Source: Ruegeria sp. YS9
GTDB taxonomy: Bacteria > Pseudomonadota > Alphaproteobacteria > Rhodobacterales > Rhodobacteraceae
Assembly (NCBI RefSeq): GCF_024628725.1
Contig: NZ_CP102410.1
Location: 434,001-498,000 of the forward strand
Direction of reading: 5' to 3'
DNA: 64,000 nt
The notes under the pieces are model-generated. The model ran no database searches, was not told where the DNA came from, and saw only the letters and a list, made by a program, of their open reading frames with translations. Below, one piece after another: positions 30,723 to 46,721 of this stretch; within the stretch, counting starts at the first letter, position 1; each line of letters starts with the position of its first letter. Both the position numbers and the translations under genes were made by a program.

Positions 30723-31214
30723 ATGAGTCTTTTTGCCACTTTGGCGCCGGTACGAGTATTTTTGCTCAACTCCAATACAAGGCTTTCTGCTGTGACCGAT
30801 TTGAATCCCTCCGCTGCCGCCGAGCAAGAAGCCGTCTTCTTCGCTCGTGAGAGTTTCCTTGGTGAGCTCAAGACTCTGAATCGCGACCATCCGACCACAG
30901 GCTTTGGCATTTCCCTTCGAACGCATTCGGGTGAACATTATCTGCTTGCGAACGCCCGCATGCCGTTACCCGCCGCAAAATCCGAAGGTTTCCCGACCGG
31001 GCGCCGCGTTGCATGCCTCGAGAACGGCGACCGCTTCAGCTCGATCGAAGTACTGGCCGATTCCAAATCGTACGAGACCATTTCACCCCGGGCCGAAGCC
31101 GAAATACTGGGCAATGCATTGGACCTGATCGCGCGAATCGACACTCTGACAAGCGTTCCGGCGGGGCGTGTTGCACACGAACCCCAAATTGCTGCAACGG
31201 GAACCGGAGGTTAA
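30723..31214 (+). CDS. Unrecognised protein, first gene of the dynamin operon
   Basis: The 163-residue product starts at an ATG behind CAGGAGTTA, a good ribosome-binding site; the open frame extends further upstream to 30621 without one. It has no signal peptide and no transmembrane helix. It looks like a mixed alpha/beta domain (residues 5-150: VRVFLLNSNTRLSAVTDL, then TTGFGISLRTHSGEHYLL). I do not recognise a family. It sits 2 bases before the first dynamin-like gene, so it is certainly co-translated and probably part of the same system, perhaps an adaptor. Confidence 0.75.
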   Translation: MSLFATLAPVRVFLLNSNTRLSAVTDLNPSAAAEQEAVFFARESFLGELKTLNRDHPTTGFGISLRTHSGEHYLLANARMPLPAAKSEGFPTGRRVACLENGDRFSSIEVLADSKSYETISPRAEAEILGNALDLIARIDTLTSVPAGRVAHEPQIAATGTGG

Positions 31215-31216
31215 GT

Positions 31217-33229
31217 ATGGCGCGCAACGATCACCTTTTGTCTGTAGGCAACGAAGCACTGGCACCGATGACGGCGACCATGGCTTCACTGACGGCTCAG
31301 ATTGATCAACTGACTGAGGTGGCTGATGCGCGCTCCTCGGCACGGCTGGCGACCCTCAAGACCCGGATGGAAAATTTTACCGCCAGCGTCACGATGGTGG
31401 GCCAGGTCAAGGCCGGAAAATCCTCGATCGTCAATATTCTTGCCGGGCGCCCTGGCCTGCTTCCGTCAGACGTCAACCCGTGGACGTCGGTGGTTACGAC
31501 CCTGAACATCAACACGCGCCCGCCCGGTGATACAAGGGCCAAGTTCACGTTTTTCGAGCAGGAAGAATGGGACAACCTGATGGTCGGCGGCGGTCGTCTT
31601 GGTGAATTGGCCAATCGCGCCGGCGCAGATGACGAGATGGAAGACATCCGCCGTCAGATCGGTGAAATGAAGGCCAAGTCAGAGGAACGTCTTGGCAAGC
31701 ATTTCGACCTGATCCTGGGCCAAAGTCATCAGTATGATCATTTCGATGAGGAACTGATTCAGCGCTATGTCTGCCTGGGCGATGAAGATGATCCCGATAT
31801 TGATCCAAAAACGGGCCGGTTTGCCGATGTTACCAAATCAGCCGAACTGTATATGGACATTCCGCAATACCCCATCGCGCTAAAACTGTGCGACACACCC
31901 GGTGTGAACGATACGTTCATGGTGCGCGAACAAATCACGCTGCGCAGCCTGCGCGGATCTGAAGTCTGCGTTGTGGTGTTGGCGGCAAGTCAGGCCCTGA
32001 CGACGATGGACATGGCCCTGATGCGCATTATCGCGCAGTTCGAGAACCGGCAGATCATCCTGTTCGTCAACCGGATCGACGAACTTTCCGATCCTGTGAA
32101 CCAGGTGCCAGAGATCCGTGACCGCATTCAGGACACGCTGAAACAGAACAATATCGACACCAATACCAGCGTCGTTTTTGGCAGCGCGTTGTGGGCCGAA
32201 GCGGCGTTGACCGGGAACCCGGATATTCTGACAGAAGAGTCGCGCCAGGCTTTGAATACGTTCTACCTGGCGGCCGGTTTCGGTGATCAGGCGGCCTCGC
32301 TCGACAAAATCTGGGCGCTTTCCGGTCTGCCCGATCTGCTGCTGGCCATGAATGAGCGCATTGCGGAAGGTGCCGGAGCGCGCCTGATGGACCGCGTCCG
32401 CCATCGGGCCCGTAACATTGCCAGTCAGATCCGCGCGACTGCGGTTGCCAAGAATCTGTCGGAAGGCGAAGGCCTTGCACGGGATCTTGACGGTGTGTCG
32501 CCCGAAGAAGCGATAAACACGGTGTCAGCTGAATACGAAAAGAAAGCAGCCGAGTTGACAAATGCGTTGCGCGGCAAAGTGTTGGAGCGTCTGAAGTCAG
32601 CCGAGGACAATTTCGTCAAACGCGCGACGGACTCTCTGATCGCGCATCTTGAAAAAAATGGCGAACAAGGCACGTGGCAATACGATCCCGCAGGTTTGCG
32701 GACGTTGCAAAAGGCTGCCTATTTCAGTTTTGCCCGCGCCATGCGAAAAGACGCCGGGGCGTTGTATGCAACCGCCGCTGCGGATGTTGAGGCGCTTTAT
32801 CACAAAATACTTGGCAACCATCTGGGCGAATTCAGCATCGAAGCACCCATTGTTCCCCGTGTTCCGCCACCTCTGGGTATCGGCCGGACGATTGCACTGG
32901 ACTTGCAAAGCACTTGGTGGCGACGTTGGTGGCAACGCCGAAAGGGGTTTGAGGCATACGCGGCGGATTACACGCGGCTGATCGCGTCCGAGGCAAATTC
33001 GATCACCAAGGATATCGAGGAAAACCAGATTGCAGCGGTGCTGGAAAACGTCCGTGCGATTCTTACGGATTTCCTGCGTGAGCAGAAGGAAACCCTGCTG
33101 AGCATCTCGTCTGCTGCCGACAAGAATCCGGGTCAGACTGCGGCAGCGATGGCGGGTTTGCAGCCTCAGAAATCCAAGGACGAGATTCTGGGCGACATAC
33201 TGAAAGATCTAAGCAACGAAGCGGCATAA
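31217..33229 (+). CDS. Dynamin-like GTPase, large type (copy 1)
   Basis: From the ATG at 31217, behind GGAGGTTA, the protein has 670 residues. It has a GTPase domain with G1 GQVKAGKS (62-69), a G2 Thr within PSDVNPWTSVVTT, G3 DTPGVND (226-232) and G4 NRID (285-288). A long helical region (about 380-670) follows, as in bacterial dynamin-like proteins that bend or fuse membranes. Near residues 567-575 a Trp/Arg cluster, WWRRWWQRR, could be the membrane-inserting paddle (inference). The frame is open from 31013, but that part overlaps the preceding gene. It pairs with the smaller GTPase gene 8 bases downstream and is homologous to the protein at 36408. Confidence 0.88.
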   Translation: MARNDHLLSVGNEALAPMTATMASLTAQIDQLTEVADARSSARLATLKTRMENFTASVTMVGQVKAGKSSIVNILAGRPGLLPSDVNPWTSVVTTLNINTRPPGDTRAKFTFFEQEEWDNLMVGGGRLGELANRAGADDEMEDIRRQIGEMKAKSEERLGKHFDLILGQSHQYDHFDEELIQRYVCLGDEDDPDIDPKTGRFADVTKSAELYMDIPQYPIALKLCDTPGVNDTFMVREQITLRSLRGSEVCVVVLAASQALTTMDMALMRIIAQFENRQIILFVNRIDELSDPVNQVPEIRDRIQDTLKQNNIDTNTSVVFGSALWAEAALTGNPDILTEESRQALNTFYLAAGFGDQAASLDKIWALSGLPDLLLAMNERIAEGAGARLMDRVRHRARNIASQIRATAVAKNLSEGEGLARDLDGVSPEEAINTVSAEYEKKAAELTNALRGKVLERLKSAEDNFVKRATDSLIAHLEKNGEQGTWQYDPAGLRTLQKAAYFSFARAMRKDAGALYATAAADVEALYHKILGNHLGEFSIEAPIVPRVPPPLGIGRTIALDLQSTWWRRWWQRRKGFEAYAADYTRLIASEANSITKDIEENQIAAVLENVRAILTDFLREQKETLLSISSAADKNPGQTAAAMAGLQPQKSKDEILGDILKDLSNEAA

Positions 33230-33237
33230 GTAGAAAA

Positions 33238-34989
33238 ATGGCAAAAGATACACAAACACGCTTTGTTTCACCGAAGGCATGGGAACGCATCGAGCAGTGG
33301 TCCCGCCGCAAGCCGGTTTTCGCCCTGATGGGCGAATTCAGCGCCGGGAAGTCCACGTTGATGAACTTTTTGCTGCGGACGCAGACCTTGCCGACGCAGG
33401 TGACGGCAACCCAGTTGCCACCGGTTTGGTTTAGCTGGGGCAATCAGGCGCCCTATATCAAACGTCATGATGGAAGTATCGAACTGATCGAGCTGGATCA
33501 GCTTGAAACCGTTGGTGTCAATGACGCACAGTTCATCCGTATCTATCTTGAGGCCGATATTCTGGAAGCAGTGGACCTGATCGACACGCCCGGCATTTCG
33601 GATCCCAAGATCTCGACGGATGTATGGCAACGTGCGGTGGGTCAGGCAAACGGCGTCTTGTGGTGTACCCACGCGACGCAAGCCTGGCGCGAAACCGAAC
33701 GCGCGACATGGGTTTCCCTGCCCGAACGGTTGCAGCACAATTCTTTGCTTCTGGTGACGCGGGCAGATGCCCTGAGCCTCAAAGACCGCCAAAAAGTACT
33801 GCGCCGCGTTAACCGCGAGGCGGGTCACCTGTTCAATCGGTCCATTCTGTTCTCGGCTCGCGACGCGATCACTGCCCGGGACAAGACAGGCGATGCCGAG
33901 ATGTGGTCACGCAGCGGCGGAGGCAAGATGATCGACAGCTTCCTGGAGATCACGGAACAGATTATGGACAACCGCGCCGACCAGCTGGCTCGGTACCAGA
34001 TCGACAAGAGCCAGGCCGACGCACCCAAAGTCAAACCTTTGCGCCCTGCCCGTTCATCAAACGAGCCGACAGCCAAAGACGAAGCCACACCCTTGAGGTT
34101 GGTAAACCCGCTTGAGGCCGCCGGGCAGTCGAACGCTGAAGGCGAAACAGTTGTTACCAGCTTCCCGGTACGGCCTGCCCGGGTCGAGCGGCGCTCGGAT
34201 GAGGCCGAGCGGGTTCGGATCGATGCGGAAGAGGCTGAACGGCTGCGCGCAGAGATGACGTCAGAGCCGGTACCGTTGCCCGTTGAACCCGACACAAGCG
34301 ATGATCTGCGTTCCTTGTTCAAGGACACGTCGAACGATCCGCTGGAATTGACGAATGTCGCGGGCCTTGAGGATGACGAAGACGAATTCGAGCTGTCCGT
34401 TGACGCCGATCTGGAAGACTCATTGGATGATGCCCCGAGCGCCCTGGAGGATGCTGAAATCAGCCCCGCGCCTCTTGCGGCTGTTGACGAGTCCGATGAT
34501 GTGCTCGCCTCGCTGAACACTTCGATGCAAGAGACCTCGATCGTGCCGGATGGGGAAGACGAGGAATCCAAGCAGGCCGATTTGGCGGAAGATCGCGGCA
34601 TAGAGGTTTCCGTATCCTCGATTACGGCATTGATGGCCGCGCAAACCGGCAACAATGCGGATGACTATGAGCCGGAACCCGAAACCAGCGGTTTGATTGA
34701 AGCTGCCACTACCGAACAGGTTGATGCAGTTGAAAGAAGCGTTGCCTCGCTGGGTGGCTTACCCGAAGTTGCGGTTGGATCGCCCCTCAGCGCGTCGGAT
34801 ATGTGGCAGGAGGTTTCGAGAAATGAAGACCTGCCGCAGGATGCAGAAGGGCTGAAGAACGTATTCAAGGCTTTTCTGGCCGAGTTCGATCAGATCGCCA
34901 TAGAACACAACGAAAAGCAGACCAAAGAGGCACTTCGAGCCATTCCGAAAGCCAAAGAAAACAGCGGCGCTGAATGGCATGTATTGTAA
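33238..34989 (+). CDS. Dynamin-like GTPase, small type with long acidic tail (copy 1)
   Basis: The 583-residue protein has an N-terminal dynamin-type GTPase domain of about 260 residues: G1 GEFSAGKST (32-40), G3 DTPGISD (116-122) and G4-like TRAD (174-177). The characteristic stretch WCTHATQAWRETER is shared with the small GTPase at 38447. Residues about 270-530 are low-complexity and very acidic, rich in Asp, Glu, Ser and Ala, probably disordered, and carry many Ser/Thr next to acids. The last 80 residues turn helical (DMWQEVSRNEDL, then FKAFLAEFDQIAIEHNEKQTKEAL). Paired with the large GTPase upstream. The acidic Ser/Thr tail could be a substrate of the kinase at 40075 (inference). Confidence 0.86.
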   Translation: MAKDTQTRFVSPKAWERIEQWSRRKPVFALMGEFSAGKSTLMNFLLRTQTLPTQVTATQLPPVWFSWGNQAPYIKRHDGSIELIELDQLETVGVNDAQFIRIYLEADILEAVDLIDTPGISDPKISTDVWQRAVGQANGVLWCTHATQAWRETERATWVSLPERLQHNSLLLVTRADALSLKDRQKVLRRVNREAGHLFNRSILFSARDAITARDKTGDAEMWSRSGGGKMIDSFLEITEQIMDNRADQLARYQIDKSQADAPKVKPLRPARSSNEPTAKDEATPLRLVNPLEAAGQSNAEGETVVTSFPVRPARVERRSDEAERVRIDAEEAERLRAEMTSEPVPLPVEPDTSDDLRSLFKDTSNDPLELTNVAGLEDDEDEFELSVDADLEDSLDDAPSALEDAEISPAPLAAVDESDDVLASLNTSMQETSIVPDGEDEESKQADLAEDRGIEVSVSSITALMAAQTGNNADDYEPEPETSGLIEAATTEQVDAVERSVASLGGLPEVAVGSPLSASDMWQEVSRNEDLPQDAEGLKNVFKAFLAEFDQIAIEHNEKQTKEALRAIPKAKENSGAEWHVL

Positions 34990-35041
34990 GGGCGCCCGAA
35001 TCGAAGTAGCGAGAAACTAATAAATGAAAACAATGGCTTAG

Positions 35042-35443
35042 ATGTCTATTCAAACCGCACTGAACTCCGCCATGGAAACGATACCCGACTGTATTGCAGC
35101 CGGGTATATCGACATGGAGACAGGGATGCTTTTGGGCAGTTCTGTTTCTGATCCTGACTGCGCGGATTCGTTGGATGTTTTGGCGGTGGCTGTGGCGAAT
35201 CTGTTTCAGGGGCAAGGGGTTGCAGCCTTTGAAGCGCTCTTGCGTCAGGCTGGCAGTGCGGACGAAGAAAACGCTGGTTTCGGGGAAGTCGCCGTTTTTT
35301 CCAAGGATAGGCTGAACATCTTTTTGCGGACCAAGGAATATCCTGATCATGTGGTCTGCTACATCTGTCGCAACAGTGCGAATGTCGGACTGGCGCTTAC
35401 CAAATCACATCTCAGTCTGGGGCCGGTCGCGGCTGCGGTTTGA
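35042..35443 (+). CDS. Roadblock/LC7-like small protein
   Basis: The 133-residue protein has the topology and typical phrases of a roadblock/longin fold: an N-terminal helix (ALNSAMETIPDCIAAGYIDMETGML), a middle helix, then strands (GEVAVFSKDRLNIFLR, HVVCYICRNSANVGLAL). Such proteins commonly bind or regulate small GTPases (for example MglB with MglA). Its place between two pairs of dynamin-like GTPases suggests that it acts on them. Its stop overlaps a TTG that could start the next frame. Family assignment is by eye and moderately sure. Confidence 0.68.
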   Translation: MSIQTALNSAMETIPDCIAAGYIDMETGMLLGSSVSDPDCADSLDVLAVAVANLFQGQGVAAFEALLRQAGSADEENAGFGEVAVFSKDRLNIFLRTKEYPDHVVCYICRNSANVGLALTKSHLSLGPVAAAV

Positions 35444-35466
35444 ACGGGACCAGAGGGGGTCACGGC

Positions 35467-36339
35467 ATGATGGACACGGACATTCTCGACCTGCTTGAAG
35501 ACATCAGGCGGACCTCGGTCGCACGGCTGTCTCCGACCGTAAGGATCGCAGGGGAAACCGCGGCCGCGCGCCGGTCTGCGGTATTGCGGGCAATCCGCGG
35601 CACAGTATTGCCACGCCGGTTGGAATTCACCGCCGCAAACGGGGATTGTCTGGCAATCGAGGTGAACAGCTCTCGGATCACGGATGTCTTCAAGGTACCG
35701 GCAGGTGAGGTTCCGGACTTTGAAACGGAACCACGCGCCGAACTGATCGAGAAGCTGGCTGGATTGGTGTCGGAGATCTCGGCCTCGCCTGCCCCGCTTG
35801 AGTTGACGTCGGGCAGGCCGGACACAGCGCTTGAAGTGGATGAGGTAGGTATCACCTTCAGCGAAATCGAGAACGCCTGCGCCGCCATCGAGCTTCCGTC
35901 CGAACCGATTGTATCCGTCGTCCCGAGCGCTGAGAAACCTGTTGATGACTTTCCGCCCGCCGAGGCAACTCCTGATGCAGCGGAAACACTTCCACAACGT
36001 TTTTTTGAAGCGTCGAGCCGCTTCGCCTCGGGGCGTGTGTTCGTGGACAGGTCGGACGAAGCCGCACCGCTTTTGGAAGGCGTATGCAAGCCATCTGAGC
36101 CGATGTATCCCGACCAGGAAACGCTGGCCCGTTTTGTGGCTGATCTTGCCGGCTGGGATGGTGATTCTCAGCATGAGAGTGAAGACCCGCAACTGATTGT
36201 CATGCGGCCATCGGGCGGGAAAGGGGCCGGTCTGGCCGTTTTGAGTGACGGTGGTCAGATCGCGGTCGCCATCCACGAAGCCCGCAAACTGGGGGCGGTC
36301 GTCAATCTGTGGACCTCTTTGCAGGAGGCAGAGAAATGA
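35467..36339 (+). CDS. Unrecognised cytoplasmic protein in the dynamin operon
   Basis: From the ATG at 35467 (behind AGAGGGGG) the product has 290 residues; a TTG at 35440 overlapping the previous stop would add nine. It has no signal peptide or membrane helix. The N-terminal part (1-90) is helical then beta (LPRRLEFTAANGDCLAIEVN). The middle (about 100-220) is acidic and proline-rich. The C-terminal 70 residues (YPDQETLARFVADLAGW, then GAGLAVLSDGGQIAVAIHEARKLG) look like a small folded domain, perhaps distantly roadblock-like. I cannot name a family. It lies between the roadblock-like gene and the second dynamin pair. Confidence 0.72.
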   Translation: MMDTDILDLLEDIRRTSVARLSPTVRIAGETAAARRSAVLRAIRGTVLPRRLEFTAANGDCLAIEVNSSRITDVFKVPAGEVPDFETEPRAELIEKLAGLVSEISASPAPLELTSGRPDTALEVDEVGITFSEIENACAAIELPSEPIVSVVPSAEKPVDDFPPAEATPDAAETLPQRFFEASSRFASGRVFVDRSDEAAPLLEGVCKPSEPMYPDQETLARFVADLAGWDGDSQHESEDPQLIVMRPSGGKGAGLAVLSDGGQIAVAIHEARKLGAVVNLWTSLQEAEK

Positions 36340-36407
36340 TTGCCTCCGTTGAATTCAAATTTTCGACTACTTCAATCTGTTTTTTATTGTAGCCAGGGTA
36401 ATGAGTA

Positions 36408-38450
36408 ATGAGTGAAACACATCGCCGCGAACTTATTCGCATAGCAGAAGAAATGAACGGGATCAGCAACGATGAAACGCGCCAGTTCATTTCCCGCATC
36501 ATTGGTGATCTTAGCAATCTGAAACCGTCAATTGCGTTTGTCGGGCAAATCAAGGCTGGCAAGTCGCGTCTGATCAACGGCTTCACCGGTCAGGCAGAGT
36601 ATTTGCCTTCGGATGTCAACCCGTGGACAACTGTTATCACCGATATGCATTTCGGGCACCCGTCCGGCAGGACGCAAGGTGCCGAATTCCATTTCTTCGA
36701 CAATTACCAATGGCAATCGCTGATCGCCGAAGGTGAAGAACTGCGCAACATGTTTCCCGATGACGAGGACAGTTACAAGCGCGAGATGATCGAGGAACAG
36801 GTCGAGGCCATGAAGGTCCGGGCGCGTCGGCGTCTGGGTGACAGCTATGAGCAGCTGCTGGGCCAACAGCACGATCTGGACGAACTGACGTCAGATGACC
36901 TGGCCAGATATGTCTGTGCCGGGGATGATCCGTCCGAGGACGGGGCTTTGGATCCGGGCAGTGATCGCGGGCTTTACAGCGACATCACCCGCAAGGCCGA
37001 GGTCTATTTTGAATTGGGCCATTTTCCGTTTCCACTGACGGTTACTGACACGCCCGGCGTGAATGACCCTCTGCTGATCCGCGAAGAAATTTCACGACAG
37101 TATCTGAAGGAATCCGATTTCTTTGTGGTGGTTCTGTCCGCGCATCAGGCATTGTCGCGCGCGGATCTGAAACTGTTCCGGTTGATGCAAGCGCTGGAAC
37201 TTGGGCAGATCGTCGTGTTTATCAACCGAGTGGATGAACTGGGCGGCGGCGCCGAAGACGCTGCCAAGGTTCGTCTGGACGTATTGGACGGGTTGGAAAA
37301 GGCGCTCGGCAACTCGAACATCGATGTCCTGATGGGCAGCGCGCAATGGGCGCACTATGCTTTGACCGGTGATGAAACAGGGGTGAACCACGACCACGTT
37401 CTGGCATGGCTGCGCGCCCACCCGGAACAGATGCAGCAATACCTCAAGGGTGTGGCCGAGATCAAACAAGGCCCCGGACCGATCAGCCGCGAAGCGGTTC
37501 TGCGCTTTGCCGCAATGATCGCGTCCGGCCTGCCCGATCTGCGCCGTCATGTCACCCAGGCTTTGACGGACGGACCGATCAACGAACAGTTGCGAATGGC
37601 CTGGCAACATCTCGACAGCTTCGCGCGCGGAGAGCTTGAGCGCTCTCAGGTTCGTTTGCGGGCGCTTCAAGATGAAGACGGCTTGGATGTTCGAAATGCC
37701 GATGAAAGCGACAAGACACTTGGCGACCTGCGCAAGCTGATTGCTGAAAAAACGCAGGAGATCACGCGTGACATGGATGATGTCCTGTCGAATCTGCGCG
37801 GGGTCATGGATGACACTGTCTCGGAATCGGTGGCTATCGTTGTGCGCGGGCCGGACGGCCAGTCGCCTCTGCTGGCAAAAGGTGGAGAGACCGAGCTCAA
37901 TTTTACACCATTGCGCGAACGTATGCGTGAACTGGTACAGGGGGCATCGCAAGTTGTTCGGCAGCGCATGCTCAGCGAGCTTTACGCGATCGACATGCAT
38001 TGCAATGCCGCCTTGCGGGCATTGCCGGGATGGCAAGAGCCGGTCGACAATCGCATGAACACCAGTGCTGTACGTTGGTTCCGGCCGGACACCACCGCCC
38101 TGACCCGTGGCATTACCGTTGAATTGCGTGTAAACTGGTTGTCGCGTCTGATCTCGCGCAATAGCGTTGTGGCGCGCGCCGAACGAATGATCGTGCAGGA
38201 GTTCGAGCTGATCGGGGATGACCTGATCGACACGACTCGCGACGATCTGTTGGAACGGCTGAACACGGTTCTGGACCACTATATGGCCCTTCTGGCCGGT
38301 CATCTTGAACACCGTTCCAACTCAGGAGAACTGAACGCCCAGGCGGAGGCGCAAGGTGCATTCGACAGGGCGCGTCGCATTGCAGCCGAGCTGGAGACGG
38401 TTTTTGGAACACCCGATGCGGATGAAAGACAAGCAAAGGCTGCGGAATGA
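36408..38450 (+). CDS. Dynamin-like GTPase, large type (copy 2)
   Basis: The 680-residue protein is homologous along its GTPase domain to the one at 31217: G1 GQIKAGKS (46-53), G2 region YLPSDVNPWTTVIT, G3 DTPGVND (214-220) and G4 NRVD (273-276). Both share a RY.C...D insertion. A long helical stalk follows. Around residue 576 the stretch NWLSRLISRNS may be an amphipathic membrane paddle in the same relative place as the Trp/Arg cluster of copy 1. It overlaps the small GTPase gene downstream by 4 bases (ATGA), so the two are made together. Confidence 0.88.
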   Translation: MSETHRRELIRIAEEMNGISNDETRQFISRIIGDLSNLKPSIAFVGQIKAGKSRLINGFTGQAEYLPSDVNPWTTVITDMHFGHPSGRTQGAEFHFFDNYQWQSLIAEGEELRNMFPDDEDSYKREMIEEQVEAMKVRARRRLGDSYEQLLGQQHDLDELTSDDLARYVCAGDDPSEDGALDPGSDRGLYSDITRKAEVYFELGHFPFPLTVTDTPGVNDPLLIREEISRQYLKESDFFVVVLSAHQALSRADLKLFRLMQALELGQIVVFINRVDELGGGAEDAAKVRLDVLDGLEKALGNSNIDVLMGSAQWAHYALTGDETGVNHDHVLAWLRAHPEQMQQYLKGVAEIKQGPGPISREAVLRFAAMIASGLPDLRRHVTQALTDGPINEQLRMAWQHLDSFARGELERSQVRLRALQDEDGLDVRNADESDKTLGDLRKLIAEKTQEITRDMDDVLSNLRGVMDDTVSESVAIVVRGPDGQSPLLAKGGETELNFTPLRERMRELVQGASQVVRQRMLSELYAIDMHCNAALRALPGWQEPVDNRMNTSAVRWFRPDTTALTRGITVELRVNWLSRLISRNSVVARAERMIVQEFELIGDDLIDTTRDDLLERLNTVLDHYMALLAGHLEHRSNSGELNAQAEAQGAFDRARRIAAELETVFGTPDADERQAKAAE

Positions 38451-39733
38451 TTGAGTTTCCCGGAACTGAAAAGGAAGTACGCCAACTGGAGCGCTTCCTG
38501 ACTGCAACTGAAAACCTGACGCCGGACGCGGCGTTGGAGGATATGCGCGCGCGGGCTCTGTCCCACGCCGAACGTCTGTCAAATGCGGTCAATATCGGTT
38601 TCGCCGGGGAATTCGGCGCAGGCAAGTCAAGTCTGGCGAACATGCTGGCTGGCGCGGACATTCTGCCAACCGGCCCGCAGCATCTGAAATTGCCTCTGGT
38701 GATCGTCGCCTACGCGGAAGCGCCTGAAACGACTGTCGGTTGGTGGAACAGGGAGCCAAAGACCTATTCAGGCATAGTGCTGGAAAAAGCCGCCCAGGAA
38801 GAGCCAGATTTCATATCGGTCGGTATCAATACACCGGCTCTCAAGGAAATATCGCTGTTTGATCTTCCGGGCTCGGGTGCTCTCGATGATACCTACAAGC
38901 CGACTTTGGATCTGCTGAAATTCGTCGATTGTGCCATCTGGTGCACAAATGGAACCAATGCCTGGCGCGAGACCGAGCGCCACTTGTGGTCTCAGGTACC
39001 CCCCGAACTGAGGGCCAACAGCCTGCTGGCCGTTACACATGCCGATCTGCCACCGGTTCAGGGTGCCCTGGACCGCGTCCTTGCGCGCCTGAACAAGGAA
39101 AAGGAAGGAATGTTCCGCGCTGTTGTCCCAATTGGTACGCCGGTTGCGGTGCGTGCCATGGCGCAGGAGCCCGAGCCCGACTTTGCGCTTTGGGAAACCT
39201 GCGGCGGACAGAACCTTGCGGAACACGTGCTGGAAGCGGCCTCTGACCGGCGTCGCGGCGATCTCGAGGCTGCGCGGAAAGATTTGCAGCAGGACTTCCT
39301 GCCTTATCTTGAGGCGCTGAAGGGCGCAGAGCCAGAGCCTGTTTCGAATGATACCGCATCGATGCAGTCAACGCTGGAGACTGCCCTGCCCCCGTTGAAC
39401 AATCCCATTCTCGAGGACTGGCTGGCCGCAATAGCAAGCATCTATGAAGATTTACGCGAAACATCCGACATTGAACCGGCAACGTTTCTGAACAGCTGTC
39501 AAGAGATCGTCGAAGATTTTGCGGAACGGCTGGAACAAGGTGGCGAAATCGACCCCGAAGCTGATTGGATTCCCGCAGAATTTGAAAAGGCGACAGATTT
39601 GCTTTTGTTGCTGCAATTCGAAAGCGGAGACGCGCCGTTGAAGGACGCAATCAGCATTTTGGCGCAGCTGGGCGACAACCTTGCCTGGGCTGGTAGCACG
39701 GTTGCGGTGGCACAGCCGAAGACCGGCACCTGA
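38447..39733 (+). CDS. Dynamin-like GTPase, small type (copy 2)
   Basis: The 428-residue protein has G1 GEFGAGKSS (54-62), G3 in the variant form DLPG (139-142), and G4-like THAD (197-200). It shares WCTNGTNAWRETERHLW with the small GTPase at 33238 but has only a short acidic linker and a helical C-terminus instead of the 300-residue acidic tail. It forms the second large/small pair with the gene it overlaps. A strong terminator 40 bases downstream ends the operon that began at 30723. Confidence 0.86.
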   Translation: MIEFPGTEKEVRQLERFLTATENLTPDAALEDMRARALSHAERLSNAVNIGFAGEFGAGKSSLANMLAGADILPTGPQHLKLPLVIVAYAEAPETTVGWWNREPKTYSGIVLEKAAQEEPDFISVGINTPALKEISLFDLPGSGALDDTYKPTLDLLKFVDCAIWCTNGTNAWRETERHLWSQVPPELRANSLLAVTHADLPPVQGALDRVLARLNKEKEGMFRAVVPIGTPVAVRAMAQEPEPDFALWETCGGQNLAEHVLEAASDRRRGDLEAARKDLQQDFLPYLEALKGAEPEPVSNDTASMQSTLETALPPLNNPILEDWLAAIASIYEDLRETSDIEPATFLNSCQEIVEDFAERLEQGGEIDPEADWIPAEFEKATDLLLLLQFESGDAPLKDAISILAQLGDNLAWAGSTVAVAQPKTGT

Positions 39734-39772
39734 CGTCTTCCCGTCAAGATTGAGCTGCATTGCAGCGATTCG

Positions 39773-39798
39773 AAGGGCCGAGGAATCGGCCCTTTATT
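39773..39798 (+). terminator. Rho-independent terminator ending the dynamin operon
   Basis: AAGGGCCGA-GGAA-TCGGCCCTT is a perfect 9-bp stem with a GNRA-type loop, followed by TATTGTTT. The remaining 276 bases to the kinase gene (39799-40074) hold no gene. They are AT-rich around 39840-39970, which is where the kinase promoter probably lies. Confidence 0.88.
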
Positions 39799-40074
39799 GT
39801 TTCGAATTCGTGGACCAACACGCTTGATTTGGGGTTTCAGTTTTCAATTAATCCATATCGCAGATCTATATGTAGTGGCCGCAACCCATCTGTGAACAAT
39901 ATCTGCCATCTCACGGAAAACGATCCATAGTGAAGCCATCAGGCGGCCCCAATAAAGTCAAATTTGAAACGTCTAACCGTTCTCAAGTGTCCTGCGGTTG
40001 TTTTTGGTTGTGAGTTCGTGGGCTGTCGGCCCGGTTTTTCTAAGCCGCAAAATGAATAGAACGGGCGGATTGAA

Positions 40075-42255
40075 ATGAGCCACAACCAGGCTGTCGGTGC
40101 GACGCACGACGAACCAAAAATTGAGGGATTGCAGCCAGGCGCAAAGCTGTTGCGCGGGCAGTATGAAATTCTCCGCTATCTCAGCAACGGTGGATTTGGG
40201 ATCACTTACCTGGCGCGCGACAGCCTGGAGCGCGACGTCGTGATCAAAGAGTGCTTCCCCGGAGCGCTGTGCCGACGCAACGGTGATCTGGTTGAGCCCA
40301 ATGATCCATCCTACAAGGACGACCTGCGCTCGATCATTGACCTCTTTATTCAGGAGGCGCGCAATCATGCGCGCCTGGTACATCCCAATATCGTGGACGT
40401 ACACCAGGTGTTCGAAGACAACGACACCGCCTATATCGCAATGGACCTGATCCGTGGGTGCGACCTGCTGGATTACGTGGAAAACCCGGAAAATGACGGC
40501 GGCCCGGATTTCATCGTTCAGGTCACCGAAAAAATGCTGTCCGCGGTATCTTTCATTCACCAGAGCGGCATGTTGCATCGGGACATTTCGCCGGACAACA
40601 TTCTGATTGATGAAAACGGAGACCCCGTCCTGATTGATTTTGGCGCCGCACGTGAGCAAGCGGCGAACAAGTCGGCAGCATTGTTGACCCTGCGCGTCAT
40701 CAAGGATGGATATTCTCCGCACGAATTCTATGTCCGGGGCGCGGATCAAGGGCCCAGCAGCGATCTCTATGTTCTGGCCGCCACGCTTTATCACGCGATC
40801 AGCGGTGAACGCCCCATCGACGGCCAGAGCCGCCTGAACGCTTTCAACAACGGGCAGGATGACCCCTACACGCCACTGACCGGTCGGTTCGAAGGATACC
40901 CAGACGGGTTCCTTGAGGCGATTGACAAGGCGATGGAAGTTCACGCCACGGATCGTCTTCAATCCGCATTGGATTGGTTGCGCATGTTCCGCGGCCCCGG
41001 TGTCATGTTTGACACTTTCGCTTATCGTCCCGTGTCCGTGATTGTCGGCATGGATCGCAAAGACAAAGAGGCAGAAAAGGCTCGGATCAAGGCCGAAAGC
41101 GAAAACGCCGAAGCCGTAGTTACGGCCCTGCTGGCCGGAAACTCGGACATCGTTCTTGGCAACGAAGACAAAAAAGATGGCGATCTGTCCAAGATTTCAA
41201 AGAAAGAGGAAACCCCGGTCGCTGTCGATACAGTGGTTCAGAGCGGGTCCGGCGGCAGCGGCAAGTTGATTGCAGGCGCGGCTGTTGTTGCAGTTGCTTT
41301 GGCCGCGGGCGGTTTCTTTGTGATGTCCGGCGACAAGACAGAAGACCAGGCAGAATCACCGGTCACGCAGCCCACGGCAGACGTACAATCCGCTGAGGCA
41401 GAGTCACCCGCTACCGATCCTTCTGTCACGGAGGCCACCGAACCCGAAGTGGCCGTCGCCCCCGAACCCAAACCGGAAGAGCCTGTCGAGCAGGCACAAC
41501 CAGTACCTGCGGAGCTAGCTGCCACAGAAACAGCCTCCGCAGACACTGAACGTTCCGAGGTTCCGTCACAGTCGGAAGAAGCGACTGAAATTGCAGCAGT
41601 GTCTGAGATTGAGACACCTGCGACTGATGCAATTGCCAACGCCGGTGTTCCGGCGGAACAGCAGGTGGCGTTTGCGCATTGGGATGTCGATATCCCCTTC
41701 CAGACATCCCGCCGCCGCGGCTCGACCGGAGCCACGATTGCAGTTACGGGGGTGGACGCCGATCAGGACATGAGCGTGATCGGCGATTGGGTGCAGCGTG
41801 GCGCTGTCATCTATACCCTGAATGGCCGCCCGGTCCGTCAGGATGTTTCTTTTGCGGCGCAGGTTCTGGATAACCTGAAAGTCGACACCGATGGGTACAC
41901 AAGGGTTGCAGCCCGCTATCGCCCGCTGGGTCAGACCCGGGCGCAAAACGGCTTGTTGGCCCTTCCCGCCATACGATCCGTTGGCTTGGAAAATGGTTAC
42001 ACCTTTACCGTCAGCGCCGATGGCGACGCCGGATGGCAAACAAGGGTGAACGCAGTTCCGGCTGAAGCGGCAGGAAACCTACAAAAAGGCGATGTCCTGC
42101 TGAATGAAAGCCTTTCCGGCATTACATTTGACGGCTCGGAAAGCCTTGATGAGATGCTGGCCGCACTCGTTTCAAGCGAGCAGTCTGAGGCAAAACTGAC
42201 AGTGTTGCGCAATGGGGCCGAGACGGCCGCCACCATGCAGCTTGCACAGGAGTAA
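40075..42255 (+). CDS. Transmembrane Ser/Thr protein kinase with periplasmic PDZ-like tail
   Basis: The 726-residue protein starts with a Hanks-type kinase domain (about 28-310): Gly loop SNGGFGITY (37-45), Lys58 in VIKE, Glu94, the catalytic HRD loop HRDISPDN (168-175) and DFG (188-190), all intact, so it should be active. A charged linker leads to one transmembrane helix (about 397-417), then a Glu/Pro/Ala-rich stretch and about 190 periplasmic residues that look like two PDZ-like units (GDWVQRGAVIYTLNGRPV; NLQKGDVLLNESLSGITF). The kinase faces the cytoplasm and the tail may sense periplasmic proteins. It is followed by FHA and PP2C genes, its likely reader and eraser. Confidence 0.92.
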   Translation: MSHNQAVGATHDEPKIEGLQPGAKLLRGQYEILRYLSNGGFGITYLARDSLERDVVIKECFPGALCRRNGDLVEPNDPSYKDDLRSIIDLFIQEARNHARLVHPNIVDVHQVFEDNDTAYIAMDLIRGCDLLDYVENPENDGGPDFIVQVTEKMLSAVSFIHQSGMLHRDISPDNILIDENGDPVLIDFGAAREQAANKSAALLTLRVIKDGYSPHEFYVRGADQGPSSDLYVLAATLYHAISGERPIDGQSRLNAFNNGQDDPYTPLTGRFEGYPDGFLEAIDKAMEVHATDRLQSALDWLRMFRGPGVMFDTFAYRPVSVIVGMDRKDKEAEKARIKAESENAEAVVTALLAGNSDIVLGNEDKKDGDLSKISKKEETPVAVDTVVQSGSGGSGKLIAGAAVVAVALAAGGFFVMSGDKTEDQAESPVTQPTADVQSAEAESPATDPSVTEATEPEVAVAPEPKPEEPVEQAQPVPAELAATETASADTERSEVPSQSEEATEIAAVSEIETPATDAIANAGVPAEQQVAFAHWDVDIPFQTSRRRGSTGATIAVTGVDADQDMSVIGDWVQRGAVIYTLNGRPVRQDVSFAAQVLDNLKVDTDGYTRVAARYRPLGQTRAQNGLLALPAIRSVGLENGYTFTVSADGDAGWQTRVNAVPAEAAGNLQKGDVLLNESLSGITFDGSESLDEMLAALVSSEQSEAKLTVLRNGAETAATMQLAQE

Positions 42256-42456
42256 TCTGACCGGTTCGAAAGTGATCTGCCAGTGTGTGTTTGCTGAGGG
42301 TGGCATCCAGCTTTGCCACCCTGGCGGGAACCGGCCCGCCGCAGAATGTACCAGTTCCCATGGGTATCCATTGAGTGGCTCTGCGCTGACGTGCAGGGAA
42401 CAGTAGCAGCTTACGACGCGGATTGTCTGCGTCACCAACTTGAAGGTGTCGACACC

Positions 42457-43497
42457 ATGTTCAAATACAAAAGCCCTCTGAGCCGGCTTCTCGAAGGTGC
42501 CGGCAAATCCAAAGAAGAAGGCGTTGCCGAGAACACGGCTGCGGTAGATGCCGCAGAAAGCGAAGAAGTAAAGCAGGAACCCATTGCGGATTTCAACGCC
42601 CTGCGCGCCGCATTGGCCGGTGGAAACATGACATCCGAATCCTATGAGGAAACGGATGAGCTGATCCCCGAAGAAAAGATGCCCGAGTTCGACGAGGCCG
42701 AGCCGGAGGCAGTGACCGAACCCGAGGAGTCGATCTTTGCCGAGGACAGTTCGGAGGAGGAAGACACGCCGGAAGAAGAAGACGCTCTGAAAAACGTTCT
42801 GGCGGAAGAGCCTGTCGAAGAACCGGTTGAGGTCGAGCAGGTTGTCACCCTGCATGTGACGGAAACACCCGCTGAAACACCGCCAGAGGAAACAACGGCC
42901 GAGGTCGTGTCCGAACCTGCCGAACCGGAAGTCGTCGAGGTTGAAGTCGCGGAAGCTGCGGTTGCGGAAGCGAAGCAGGTCGAAGACACGGCTGAACCTG
43001 TGATTGAACAGGTTGCACCAGCCCCAGCCCCGGTCGAGGATCGCCGCTCACGGGTCAAGACGACATTTCTTGGATTTGAGCGCGCCGATACGCATGTTCA
43101 GGACCTGATCGAATCCTCCGAACCCCTGGCAAAAGCAGAAGCGACACAAGCGACGTTCCCGGTGGGTTGGCTGGTGGTAACAGCAGGTCCGGGACGGGGT
43201 TCAAGCATTACGCTGACCGAAGGCCTGATGCAAATCGGGCGCAACGATGACCAGGCCATTCAGTTGGATTTCGGCGATACCGGCATTTCGCGCTCGAACC
43301 ATGCCGTGATCGCCTACGACCCCGAGGACCGGAAGTGCTATCTGGGCCATGGCGGCAAGGCCAATCTCGTTCGTCTGAACGGCAAACCCGTTCTCAGCAC
43401 CGTGGCCCTGTCCAGCGGAGACCTGATCCGCATCAGCGAAACCTCGATCCGGTTCATGGCCTTCTGTGATGACGGTTTTGATTGGCGGGATTCCTGA
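42457..43497 (+). CDS. FHA-domain protein with long acidic N-terminal region
   Basis: From the ATG at 42457 (GAAGGTGTCGACACC before it) the protein has 346 residues. Residues 1-40 are basic (MFKYKSPLSRLLEGAGKSKE). Residues about 60-210 are a Glu/Val/Pro/Thr-rich, probably disordered, string. The last 115 residues form an FHA domain with IGRND, SRSNHA and RLNGKPV, the phosphothreonine-binding loops. It should bind proteins phosphorylated by the kinase two positions upstream, or be phosphorylated in its Thr-rich acidic part. An upstream in-frame extension to 42313 has no similarity. The stop abuts the phosphatase start. Confidence 0.9.
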   Translation: MFKYKSPLSRLLEGAGKSKEEGVAENTAAVDAAESEEVKQEPIADFNALRAALAGGNMTSESYEETDELIPEEKMPEFDEAEPEAVTEPEESIFAEDSSEEEDTPEEEDALKNVLAEEPVEEPVEVEQVVTLHVTETPAETPPEETTAEVVSEPAEPEVVEVEVAEAAVAEAKQVEDTAEPVIEQVAPAPAPVEDRRSRVKTTFLGFERADTHVQDLIESSEPLAKAEATQATFPVGWLVVTAGPGRGSSITLTEGLMQIGRNDDQAIQLDFGDTGISRSNHAVIAYDPEDRKCYLGHGGKANLVRLNGKPVLSTVALSSGDLIRISETSIRFMAFCDDGFDWRDS

Positions 43498-44283
43498 TTG
43501 ATGCTGGCAACTCCGGCATATGATGTTGCGCTGATCCTGAACCAGGGTCAGCGGGAAACGCAGGAAGACGCGATTGCGGCCCGCATGTTTGATGCGTCGG
43601 ACGCGGGTTATGTTGTGATTGCAGACGGCATGGGTGGCCATGAAGCGGGCGAAATAGCGTCGGAAATGGTAGTGGCCGCATGGCGCGACGCGCTGGACGC
43701 AGAACTTGAGGCAGAAACCCTCAACGAAGGATCCGCGATGGATGCGCTTCCTTTGGCCGCCATGCAAGCCAATGCCGCGATCGCCAACTACACCGAGGCC
43801 CGGGGCCAGGGGTTCAACATGGGATCAACCATGCTGGGCGTCCTTCTTCTGGGGCGGCGTGTGTTCTGGATTTCAATCGGCGACAGCCCTCTTTACCTGT
43901 TCCGAGATGGAACGTTGACGCAGGTCAACGAAGACCACTCGATGGCACCCGTGATTGCTTCGAAATTGGCTTCGGGCAAGATTACTGAAGCGGAAGCCCG
44001 GGAAATGGACCGCAATCAATTGACGTCCGTGGTCATGGGCGGGGCCATTCCCAAAGTGGATTGCCCGGAAGATCCTTTGATCGTGTCGCCTGCCGATGTC
44101 CTGATCCTTGGAAGTGATGGGTTGCAGTACATCAGCGACGCCGAAATTCAGGACATTCTGCGGGATCACCAACAGGGGCTGGCACAAGACATTGCCGAAG
44201 CATTGCTGAGGGCCGTGCAGGCCAAGGGTGACCCTGATCAGGACAATCTTTCTATCGCAGTGGCGAAACTTACAAGAACCTAA
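43498..44283 (+). CDS. PP2C-family protein Ser/Thr phosphatase
   Basis: The 261-residue protein starts on the base after the FHA gene's stop. All PP2C metal motifs are present: QEDA (E22/D23), ADGMGGHEAG (D42), GDSPLYLFRDG, LGSDGL and DNLSIAV. It is a cytoplasmic Mg/Mn-dependent phosphatase, probably reversing phosphorylation by the kinase at 40075. Kinase, FHA and PP2C side by side form a complete phospho-signalling trio. Confidence 0.94.
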   Translation: MMLATPAYDVALILNQGQRETQEDAIAARMFDASDAGYVVIADGMGGHEAGEIASEMVVAAWRDALDAELEAETLNEGSAMDALPLAAMQANAAIANYTEARGQGFNMGSTMLGVLLLGRRVFWISIGDSPLYLFRDGTLTQVNEDHSMAPVIASKLASGKITEAEAREMDRNQLTSVVMGGAIPKVDCPEDPLIVSPADVLILGSDGLQYISDAEIQDILRDHQQGLAQDIAEALLRAVQAKGDPDQDNLSIAVAKLTRT

Positions 44284-44304
44284 ACAGGCAAAGCAACAGG
44301 ACCC

Positions 44305-45567
44305 ATGAAAAAGCACTTACTCATATCAAGCCTTGCCCTTGCTGCCGCCACGGGCGCGGCATCTGCGCAAGAAGCATGTTCAAGTTATGAAATTCAACGC
44401 GGCGATAGCTTACGGGAATTGGCAATCGAAGTGTATGCGACCGAAGACTTTCGCATCATTTTCGACGCGAACCGGGATGTTATCGGTGCCAACCCCAATA
44501 TCATCCGCGTCGGCGACGTTCTGGAACTGCCATGTCTGGAAGATGTCGGGCGGGCTCCGGCGCTGGCTGACACCGAGGCAGAGCGGCTGGCTGCCGAAAT
44601 GGCGGCAGAGCTGGTAAAAGCCGCAGAAGAGCGCGCCAAGAAAGCCGTGGCCGAAGCGGAAGCCCGCGTTGCCGCAGCGGAAGCCGAGGCAAAGAAGGCG
44701 AGTGAAGAGGCCGTCGTTGCAGCGCGGGCTGCTGCCAAGGAAGAGATCGAAGCCGCCCGTGCGGAAGCTGCCGCTTTGATCCGGAATGCCGGAACGGGTG
44801 AACGGCCCGAAATCCGGGACCGGCAATTGCTGTTGATCACTGGCGGGAACTACGCTCCGTTCACCGATGAATCTCTGCCCAACAGGGGGCTCTATACCCA
44901 TCTGGTTGAGACAGCGATGTTTCGTGCCGCTCCCGAACAGGCCTACAAGATTCAGTTCGTGAATGACTGGTCATCCCATCTGGACCTGTTGATGCCGACA
45001 CTTGCATTTGACGCCACCTTCCCCTGGTCGCGCCCCAATTGCGAAGAGGCCGTTGCACTGTCGGAAGATGATCGCAACCGGTGCGAGACCTACAATTTCT
45101 CAAACCCGTTCTACGAGGTTGTGGATACGTTCTTCGCCCGGGAAGGTTCCGGCTATGAACAGACGCTGACCTATGCCGATTTTGCCGGTGCAACGATCTG
45201 CCGGCCGGAGGGTTGGTCCTTGTCACACATGGACGCGGTCAGCCTGTACGAACCGGTCATCAAACTTCTGCGTCCGACGTCTCCGGATGATTGCTTTCAC
45301 GCTCTGATGGATGGCACCGCAGATATCGTCGCCATCGAGGCACATCTGGCAGCCGAGGCAATAGATCGGCTTGGGTACAAGCACCGGATTATCGAAAACC
45401 CCAACCTAGCGGCCATCAAGTCGCTTAACGTCATGACCCACAAAGATAATCCTGATGGGGAAGCGATCCTCGAGACGCTGAATCAGGGTCTGGCAATCAT
45501 GCAGCAATCGGGCGAATGGCGCGACATCGTGTCAACCGCCCTGCGTCATCAAATGGAAAATGGATAA
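44305..45567 (+). CDS. Secreted LysM protein with coiled coil and solute-binding (SBP_bac_3-like) domain
   Basis: The 420-residue protein has a signal peptide (1-21, ASAQ) and a LysM domain (28-77, YEIQRGDSLRELAIEVYAT through GDVLELPC) expected to bind peptidoglycan. An Ala/Glu/Lys coiled coil follows (about 89-161), then a family-3-type periplasmic binding domain (173-420, LLITGGNYAPFTDE, NDWSSHLDLLMPTLAFD). No transporter permease lies near it, so the binding domain is more likely a sensor or scaffold than a nutrient carrier. It follows the phosphatase by 21 bases and is a paralogue of the next gene. Confidence 0.87.
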   Translation: MKKHLLISSLALAAATGAASAQEACSSYEIQRGDSLRELAIEVYATEDFRIIFDANRDVIGANPNIIRVGDVLELPCLEDVGRAPALADTEAERLAAEMAAELVKAAEERAKKAVAEAEARVAAAEAEAKKASEEAVVAARAAAKEEIEAARAEAAALIRNAGTGERPEIRDRQLLLITGGNYAPFTDESLPNRGLYTHLVETAMFRAAPEQAYKIQFVNDWSSHLDLLMPTLAFDATFPWSRPNCEEAVALSEDDRNRCETYNFSNPFYEVVDTFFAREGSGYEQTLTYADFAGATICRPEGWSLSHMDAVSLYEPVIKLLRPTSPDDCFHALMDGTADIVAIEAHLAAEAIDRLGYKHRIIENPNLAAIKSLNVMTHKDNPDGEAILETLNQGLAIMQQSGEWRDIVSTALRHQMENG

Positions 45568-45611
45568 GGCCCCTATCTGGCCTCACAAACTATAGTCTGG
45601 AGGAAGTGGAC

Positions 45612-46721
45612 ATGTTTAACGAGAAGATAAAGAAGGTAGCGCTTTCAGCAACCGCGATCACCGCTCTGAGTGCGGGCGCCGTTGCGGCGCAGGAAGCTTG
45701 TACCAACTACACCGTCCAGGACGGTGACACCATGGCGACCATTGCAATCGCAGCGTACGGCACGTCGAACTATCAGCCGATCTTCAACGCGAACCGGAAC
45801 GAAATCACCAACCCCAACGCTCTGGAGCCAGGTCTTGTTCTGGCCCTTCCCTGTGAGGACGGTAGCCTGCCCAATGGTCAGAGCGCGCAGGAAATCATCG
45901 CAGCTGAAGAACAACGTGCGGCCAGTGTCAAACGATCGAGCGTCTACCAGCCACCGATCAAGCTGGTAACCGGCAATGGCTGGGCACCTTTCGCCGATGA
46001 ATCGTTGAACGGTGGCGGAGCAATCACGCGTCTGGGCACCACGGCTTTGCAGCGCGGCGGCAACGCGCGGGACTATTCCGTAAGCTTCGTGGATGATTGG
46101 AACTCGCACCTGGAAACTCTTCTGCCTCTTGGCGCCTTTGACGTGTCCATGGCGTGGAACATGCCGGATTGCACCAACCGCACTTACGAATGGTCCTGGG
46201 AAACCGAAGTGCGCTGTACCCAATTCGATTCATCTGTTCCGGTCTACGACATTGTCGTCGGTTTCTACACCATTCCGGAAAGCCCGTATGCGAGCGCGAC
46301 AACCTTTGAAGAACTGAAGGGCGCCACCATCTGCCGTATGGATGGCTGGTTCATCCACGATCTGGAACAGGAAGGTCTGCACAACGGTGAAACCATGACG
46401 CTAATGCAGCCGATCACCGCACGCGAATGCCTTGACGCGGTTCTGACCGGCACCGCAGATGTTGCAACCTTTGAAGTTCAGTTGTTCTCGGACACAATGG
46501 TTGAAATGGGCCTGAACCAGAACGACCTGGTTGAGAACCCATACGTGACCTCGCTGTCTTCGCTGCGCTTTATCAGCCACCGCAGCAATCCGTTCGGGAA
46601 GCAATACCTGGCGATGCTGAACAAAGGCCTGAACGAGATGCGTGAAACCGGGGAATGGTATGCGATCGTCTCTGACACGCTGCGCGAGCACAACGAAAAA
46701 CTGATGGCAGCTTCGAACTGA
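45612..46721 (+). CDS. Secreted LysM protein with solute-binding domain (paralogue, no coiled coil)
   Basis: Counting from the ATG at 45612 (GGAGGAAGTGGAC before it) the protein has 369 residues: a signal peptide (1-26, AVAAQ), LysM (33-81, YTVQDGDTMATIAIAAYGT), a short linker, and a solute-binding domain (about 116-365) with the same signature points as its neighbour (GWAPFADESL, DDWNSHLETLLPLGAFD, TICRMDGW). The coiled coil of the first paralogue is missing, so the two would hold their ligand-binding heads at different distances from the wall. A strong terminator follows, closing the gene run that began at the kinase. Confidence 0.87.
   Translation: MFNEKIKKVALSATAITALSAGAVAAQEACTNYTVQDGDTMATIAIAAYGTSNYQPIFNANRNEITNPNALEPGLVLALPCEDGSLPNGQSAQEIIAAEEQRAASVKRSSVYQPPIKLVTGNGWAPFADESLNGGGAITRLGTTALQRGGNARDYSVSFVDDWNSHLETLLPLGAFDVSMAWNMPDCTNRTYEWSWETEVRCTQFDSSVPVYDIVVGFYTIPESPYASATTFEELKGATICRMDGWFIHDLEQEGLHNGETMTLMQPITARECLDAVLTGTADVATFEVQLFSDTMVEMGLNQNDLVENPYVTSLSSLRFISHRSNPFGKQYLAMLNKGLNEMRETGEWYAIVSDTLREHNEKLMAASN

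Follow-up and report, generated by a model that had tools for sequence, protein, structure and literature searches.

Dynamin-like GTPase genes next to kinase, FHA, phosphatase and roadblock genes in Ruegeria sp. YS9 and other Rhodobacteraceae: a candidate phosphorylation-controlled system

To our knowledge, what triggers bacterial dynamins is largely unknown. In a 64,000-nucleotide stretch of Ruegeria sp. YS9 (contig NZ_CP102410.1, positions 434,001 to 498,000; hereafter the window, to which all coordinates refer), genes for four dynamin-like GTPases (dynamin-like proteins, DLPs) lie beside genes for a Ser/Thr kinase, an FHA protein, a PP2C-type phosphatase and roadblock proteins. The genes are lettered A to G, K, H, P, S1 and S2. 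The conserved set of DLPs, kinase, FHA protein, phosphatase and roadblock proteins suggests a dynamin machine controlled by protein phosphorylation. Our preferred reading, to which we assign a probability of about 55%, is that dynamin-like GTPases at the inner membrane, switched by Ser/Thr phosphorylation, form one functional system. The evidence comprises gene linkage, protein families, predicted folds, conserved catalytic motifs and a conserved threonine motif.

Bacterial DLPs are usually paired in operons, according to an extract of PMC6104087, in the main text of which the word 'kinase' occurs 0 times. Campylobacter Cj-DLP1/2, LeoABC and Streptomyces DynA/DynB are such pairs and, as in those sets, Dynamin_N partners share one operon in the window. 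The profile of the gene B family was nearest to solved bacterial DLPs, namely 5owv (7.3e-10), which we take to be a Campylobacter DLP, and the bacterial dynamin-like protein 2j68 (1.1e-8). The locus differs in having three or four DLPs, one of which often lacks the DxPG motif, and paired DLP sets are not known to have kinase, FHA, PP2C or roadblock partners. The LeoA plus LeoB/LeoC-type gene set was not found; matches of the DLPs to the PADLOC LeoA/LeoBC models were weak and mostly partial (best 3e-10), and the genes here are different ones.

The actinobacterial GlnH-GlnX-PknG-OdhI/GarA cascade, in the extracts available of its literature, shares with this locus a periplasmic binding protein, membrane input, a Ser/Thr kinase and an FHA protein with an N-terminal threonine phosphosite. 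Its target is 2-oxoglutarate dehydrogenase, whereas the block here holds a PP2C gene and DLPs. The FHA protein of the window resembles a GarA/OdhI-type switch in its phospho-Thr-binding residues and in a threonine motif a short linker upstream, where phosphorylation itself would be predicted; the letters around the threonine differ from the GarA/OdhI motif. From this likeness comes a mechanism for the core, as well as an earlier example of the kind of input that LysM/solute-binding proteins could give in the Ruegeria form.

In the type VI secretion threonine phosphorylation pathway PpkA-Fha-PppA, kinase, FHA and PP2C genes stand in one block. Such a block is common to both, and no type VI secretion family was over cut-off among the 20 block and flank proteins to which the Pfam search for this system was confined. 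Roadblock proteins are known with Ras-like GTPases (PMC9481161, in extract). MglA/MglB and related GTPase-roadblock modules, conservons among them, likewise place a roadblock protein beside a GTPase, and the predicted fold of gene D matches MglB; the GTPases here are Dynamin_N proteins, not Ras-like ones, with no further GTPase among the twelve proteins (Pfam). EHD/sarcalumenin-like dynamins and an archaeal FHA operon, as described in an extract of PMC7016017, are different from this set. The earlier sequence-only reading of the window (the original prediction) knew of no described system with this set of parts, and none was found in the open-licence PMC literature searched, as far as its texts were available: the component families are known, and the joining of kinase, FHA, PP2C, dynamin and roadblock in one cassette is new to that literature.

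Gene order and linkage of the dynamin and kinase genes

The dynamin and kinase blocks contain the following features.

31217..33229, + strand: gene B, large dynamin-like GTPase 1, 670 amino acids (aa) (Dynamin_N 7.1e-11)
33238..34989, + strand: gene C, small dynamin-like GTPase 1, 583 aa, long acidic tail (Dynamin_N 4.9e-10)
35042..35443, + strand: gene D, predicted roadblock/LC7 (MglB-fold) protein, 133 aa (predicted fold)
35470..36339, + strand: gene E, 289 aa, N-terminal domain and a probable second roadblock domain at about 166-289
36408..38450, + strand: gene F, large dynamin-like GTPase 2, 680 aa (Dynamin_N 1.7e-13)
38447..39733, + strand: gene G, small dynamin-like GTPase 2, 428 aa (Dynamin_N 6.3e-10)
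39772..39795, + strand: terminator-like hairpin and T run after the dynamin block (hairpin scan)
40075..42255, + strand: gene K, Ser/Thr kinase of the Hanks type with a hydrophobic span, roughly 398-416 (Pkinase 1e-27)
42457..43497, + strand: gene H, FHA adaptor, 346 aa, long acidic N-terminal part (FHA 6.7e-8)
43498..44283, + strand: gene P, PP2C-type phosphatase, 261 aa, ATG at 43501 (PP2C_2 6e-13)
46745..46768, + strand: terminator-like hairpin and T run after the kinase block (hairpin scan)

All twelve genes (12/12) were read as open reading frames (ORFs) on the plus strand between 30723 and 46721. Together with the Pfam matches, these ORFs bore out the proposed twelve-gene, one-strand set with four Dynamin_N proteins, Pkinase, FHA and PP2C_2. 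Starts were chosen by ribosome-binding sites for the large DLP (31217), the FHA protein (42457) and the second LysM protein (45612); a longer large-DLP ORF from 31013 was dropped on this ground. Orthologues in the same order were present within the genus and the second large DLP, gene F, was found in 37/37 genus genomes searched, so the genes are real.

Linkage was analysed in 198 Rhodobacteraceae genomes of 197 genera, in each of which DLP, kinase and FHA were searched (large DLP at E ≤ 1e-20; the searches for DLP and kinase scored at most five candidates per genome). Of these genomes, 48 had the large DLP, 46 the kinase and 41 the FHA family. DLP and kinase occurred together in 42 genomes and were no more than 15 kb apart in 32; of the 41 genomes with FHA, 38 also had a DLP, which lay within 15 kb of the FHA gene in 34 and shared its strand in 33. 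Within the genus, the kinase lay approximately 3.1-3.2 kb from the second large DLP in all 37 genomes with both located. Searched more widely, the large-DLP profile at E ≤ 1e-30 matched 2/289 genomes of the class, both of the family. The FHA profile matched 7/299 genomes of the phylum, of which two, with weaker matches, were outside the family; no DLP of these families was found on the stretches fetched for these matches, two of which were short contigs.

Gene order was read in 120 loci and the window; 40 loci were picked from searches and 80 were the best 80 of at least 505 relatives in named genomes, so that the set is rich in Ruegeria and includes a few duplicates. Among these 121 loci, 28 had the order G-B-C (compact order) and 55 the order B-C-(D)(E)(F)-G (Ruegeria-like), while the 38 with neither include divergent layouts, contig ends, kinase-only loci and DLP-only stretches. 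In the 28 compact-order loci the small DLP stands immediately ahead of the large one, and in 26/28 the same stretch includes K, H or P. Gene order in the compact cassette is K-H-P-G-B-C-D-E (L009, L012, L017, L026, L039, L118-L120, L128), with the genes abutting or overlapping on one strand; examples are Yoonia (L118), Boseongicola (L119), Marinosulfonomonas (L120) and Roseobacter insulae (L128). In the two-block form, the kinase block follows the dynamin block in Ruegeria, Aliiroseovarius and Frigidibacter, precedes it in Roseovarius aestuarii (L107), and is divergent from it in Actibacterium (L091) and convergent with it in Defluviimonas (L098). The blocks remain adjacent despite changes of order or orientation (L107, L091, L098 and L099 compared with the window), which argues for a functional link between the dynamins and the kinase set. 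The neighbourhood test that the original prediction had suggested across Rhodobacteraceae was passed: the genes co-occur and adjoin over diverse genera, as one cassette or as two adjacent blocks.

The kinase-FHA-PP2C block might instead serve other targets, its frequent position beside the dynamins being incidental. In the window the two blocks are probably transcribed separately, given the hairpin at 39772-39795; kinase-FHA-PP2C sets lie without nearby DLPs in L025 and L030, and the kinase and LysM genes stand alone in four further loci (L037, L040, L041, L043). However, proximity within 15 kb in 34/41 FHA genomes, the abutting or overlapping genes of the compact cassette, and the presence of a DLP in all four genomes of the kinase-LysM-alone loci make this explanation improbable. 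As for the terminators said to close each block, a hairpin with a T run does follow both, although such sites were no more numerous over the whole scan than in shuffled sequences (25 vs a mean of 23.2), and promoter-like sites were rarer (4 vs 7.9). With no excess over shuffles, the hairpins count by position only.

A conserved threonine motif and the signalling proteins

The linker of the FHA protein contains one further feature.

43051..43077, + strand: codons of the linker motif RVKTTFLGF, invariant Thr codon at 43060-43062 (79/79 FHA proteins)

The FHA proteins differ in the length and sequence of their N-terminal part, yet 79/79 (77 distinct) carry the threonine motif, 23-42 residues ahead of the conserved GW at the start of the FHA region. 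The form [RK]x[RK]T[RT][FLI][LI]GF fits 78/79, the remaining protein having Val at one place; the stricter form was found in 42/43 proteins from outside Ruegeria-labelled loci and, under laxer inclusion, in 81/82 FHA rows. The motif never arose in shuffled linkers, motif or core in all forms occurred 0 times in each of eleven other families of the set, and the corresponding DNA pattern had a single match in the genome, inside gene H. In a 25-row alignment, the Arg, Thr, Gly and Phe of the motif were invariant, as were Arg74, Ser90, His94 and Asn120 of the aligned FHA segment (25/25 rows), which we take to be phospho-Thr-binding residues. The family profile from this alignment was nearest to solved GarA and OdhI entries, one of them named 'Rv1827 pThr 22'. 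We propose that the motif threonine of the FHA protein, and not the DLP tails, is the conserved candidate phosphosite. An amphipathic N-terminal anchor in the FHA protein was also considered and rejected, hydrophobic-moment shuffles giving <0.05 in 1/25 distinct segments, wrong starts having been used for a few of them.

The original prediction had the kinase phosphorylating the acidic tails of the DLPs. The tail of small DLP C belongs to the Ruegeria-like layout and is missing from the compact form: the median length of the small DLP that follows the large one is 571 residues in the 55 Ruegeria-like loci vs 324 in the 28 compact-order loci. No threonine was conserved at ≥85% in the 55 tails, though two serines were (S461, S518), and the tails were rejected as conserved phospho-Thr sites.

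Kinase K retains the Lys, HRD and DFG catalytic motifs, and its C-terminus, with a PDZ-like domain (PDZ_2 6.4e-5, below cut-off), is expected to lie outside the membrane. Among 19 compact-order kinases, including one cut at a contig end and one near-duplicate, 13 had no hydrophobic span and 6 had one. By eye, the C-tails of compact-order kinases (for example L009:6690-7994 and L017:6804-8150) contain similar short stretches, ISRLV..TN and VDIFGNP-like. The PP2C motifs, which we take to form the metal site, were kept in the 16 rows shown.

Kinase K was the only Pkinase match found in the genome, as in 20/41 genus genomes with a single match, and gene P was the one PP2C_2 match, PP2C having been looked for by PF13672 only. 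Dynamin_N had eight matches; the four window DLPs were the sole ones to cover most of the domain, and the other four, aligned over the first 34-40 positions only, are presumably other P-loop GTPases. A six-frame genome search with the Pfam FHA model returned nothing, a false negative since the FHA protein matches at 6.7e-8. No uniqueness is therefore claimed for FHA, and that of the kinase and PP2C genes, which relies on the same search type, is likely rather than proven.

Two genes at the end of the kinase block encode candidate sensors.

44305..45567, + strand: gene S1, secreted LysM-like and family-3 solute-binding-like domain, 420 aa
45612..46721, + strand: gene S2, secreted LysM and solute-binding-like domain, 369 aa

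Both have an N-terminal signal sequence (by eye), and they are 37% identical when aligned. Pfam LysM was over cut-off in S2 only, and just so (1.7e-4); Pfam SBP_bac_3 was found in S1 only and below cut-off (1.6e-4). NCBIfam models below their cut-offs, among them the LysM protein model PRK11198 in S1 (1.2e-6), back the LysM/solute-binding assignment, and the LysM part of S2 matches Kbp 7pvc (5.7e-6). LysM genes were present on 0/28 compact-order stretches, and these proteins were rejected as core parts. In L037, L040, L041 and L043, a kinase gene is followed by two LysM/solute-binding genes, with no FHA, PP2C or DLP gene on the stretch; the kinase and the two LysM genes are possibly a detachable sensor module.

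These results bear on the wiring first proposed for the window, in which the kinase is informed of the state of the wall or of solutes by the LysM/solute-binding proteins and phosphorylates the acidic dynamin tails, where the FHA protein docks. All the parts are present in the window layout, two tail serines are conserved, and extracts of PMC9769921 and PMC8546545 provide an input precedent in the periplasmic binding protein GlnH acting through GlnX, PknG and OdhI. Yet the compact loci have tail-less small DLPs, no LysM genes and mostly span-less kinases, and no threonine reaches 85% in the tails, so that this wiring is quite unlikely. Sensing of wall or solute state falls outside the conserved core and stays plausible for the Ruegeria form. 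It is because of these tail, LysM and membrane-span data that the switch was placed in the FHA protein, with wall sensing as an added input.

Dynamin-like proteins, roadblock proteins and the proposed switch

Dynamin_N was over the curated Pfam cut-off in 4/4 window DLPs, all of which retain the G1 P-loop and the G3 DxPG. Over all loci read, both motifs were found in 107/111 B, 52/52 F, 103/105 C and 52/90 G sequences; the four B sequences missing from the count have long N-terminal extensions, beyond the range of the pattern. G thus keeps DxPG in the window, and many of its relatives are without it. Gene B is the large DLP of the conserved core, with a Trp-rich stretch (W567, W568, W572) invariant in 21 sequences. 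Gene F was present in 46/55 Ruegeria-like loci and 1/28 compact-order loci.

On its predicted fold, gene D is a roadblock/MglB protein, in agreement with the roadblock-like call made from the letters. Pfam (E ≤ 1) and NCBIfam (E ≤ 0.1) gave no match for it, and its sequence profile gave only chance-level matches to the PDB, so that the fold search settled its identity. Gene E was likewise without a match in either database; its C-terminal part (about 166-289) is a probable second roadblock domain, which takes up all matches listed for E, and its N-terminal domain is without an assigned family. D and E were rejected as sequence relatives, their profiles not being alike. Gene A, the first of the dynamin block, was also compared.

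30723..31214, + strand: gene A, 163 aa (ORF and ribosome-binding site)

It had no Pfam match at E ≤ 1, and a profile comparison gave no match to E, of which it had been considered a relative. It was found in 45/55 Ruegeria-like loci and 0/28 compact-order loci, in the layout of Ruegeria, Aliiroseovarius and Roseovarius.

Under the reading we prefer, the kinase would act on the FHA linker, phosphorylating the invariant threonine within RxKTx[FL][LI]GF. The FHA domain, as in GarA/OdhI, may then fold back on its own phospho-Thr, or be freed or redirected; this change would release or recruit a DLP or roadblock subunit, and the PP2C phosphatase would reset the FHA protein. Roadblock proteins D and E would be subunits that regulate the DLP GTPases or scaffold them, with B and C as the catalytic pair and small DLP G as a regulatory subunit, often hydrolysis-impaired. 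Outside input would be added in the Ruegeria form by the two LysM/solute-binding proteins and by a kinase that spans the membrane and has an external PDZ-like domain. The output would be membrane tethering or remodelling at the envelope, membrane binding or remodelling being what we infer for the window DLPs from their family. The fullest version, in which a dynamin hetero-oligomer including a degenerate GTPase subunit and roadblock GTPase-activating or scaffold subunits is switched by a dedicated kinase-FHA-PP2C circuit and would be a new class of membrane-remodelling machine in bacteria, is tentative and falls somewhat short of even odds. If true, this would be the first roadblock-dynamin pairing, as far as literature searches show, joining regulators of Ras-like GTPases to dynamins. 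It would also be the first bacterial dynamin system with its own write-read-erase phospho-control, a parallel to phospho-regulated eukaryotic dynamins. Candidate regulators are encoded alongside the dynamin machine, and one invariant threonine offers a testable switch. A single ORF in L034 (5250-7094, - strand) that fuses small dynamin, DSP-type phosphatase and roadblock domains was counted for the one-system reading.

Several observations weigh against a single system. At the cut-offs used, 10/48 DLP genomes were without this FHA family and 6/48 without the kinase, and three FHA genomes were without a DLP; single absences are soft because at most five candidates were scored per genome in the DLP and kinase searches. 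The two-contig assembly G244 has kinase-FHA-PP2C and no DLP match. Four genomes with DLP and FHA were unlinked, the blocks being apart in G063 and G228 and the matches lying on short contigs in G207 and G255. DLP stretches without the kinase set were also read (L032-L034, L045, L046, L108-L114), some ending at contig ends. Correlated distances for the large DLP vs kinase, FHA and PP2C (r = 0.72, 0.77 and 0.82; 24 loci) were counted for one system, but fit shared species history as well as co-evolution. The type II group was well supported in the FHA tree (99/99) and poorly in the PP2C tree (77/65), in which the window row is a very long branch. The extracts of the literature searched gave no example of a dynamin as the target of a roadblock protein, and the phosphorylation event, the FHA partner and the direction of the switch are themselves inferred.

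The dynamins could alternatively pinch membrane as a division, vesicle-release or envelope-biogenesis factor, phosphorylation only timing the event. Roles known or proposed for bacterial DLP sets are vesicle release for LeoABC (PMC4159319, in extract), and cytokinesis for Streptomyces DynA and membrane repair for B. subtilis DynA (PMC6104087, in extract). The set is not universal in the family (48/198), however, and the grouped loci have few conserved neighbours beyond the cassette, none of them annotated here; such a role seems fairly unlikely.

Related layouts were seen elsewhere. Loci L108-L114 (Rubellimicrobium and others) have a large DLP, in most cases together with a small DLP and weak roadblock-like genes; the kinase set is missing from these stretches, some of which are short contigs. 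Second kinase-FHA-PP2C modules occur in L139, L143 and L144, two of them followed by a G-family small DLP, and the large DLP is missing from these stretches. In L133, L134, L140 and L142, which include genomes outside the family, the FHA, PP2C and kinase genes have another layout. Two relatives, a dynamin 55% identical to F labelled Gelidibacter (P0102) and a protein 61% identical to E labelled Roseibium (P0141), represent transfer out of the family or mislabelled records.

Genomic setting

Similar stretches were found on five Ruegeria plasmids of 389-811 kb, two of which match over the full window length; the plasmid stretch of strain THAF33 is 95% identical to the window. All five plasmid records were predicted non-mobilizable. 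The eight flanking genes scanned were transport, metabolic and regulatory genes (Pfam).

This setting bears on whether the locus is an anti-phage or stress membrane-repair system, the kinase set triggering the dynamins upon infection. Its distribution over genera is patchy (48/198), and PADLOC gave, besides the weak LeoA/LeoBC matches, a match of kinase K to PD-T4-6 models (1.5e-42), which is expected for any Hanks kinase. Against this, the second large DLP was in every one of the genus genomes searched, the matching plasmids were predicted non-mobilizable and the flanking genes are of the kinds just given, so that a defence role is unlikely.

A tRNA-Leu gene (29877-29961) lies just upstream of the dynamin block; the approximately 760 bases after it contain no clear gene. 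A gene for monomeric isocitrate dehydrogenase (48525-50738, - strand) lies downstream of the kinase block.

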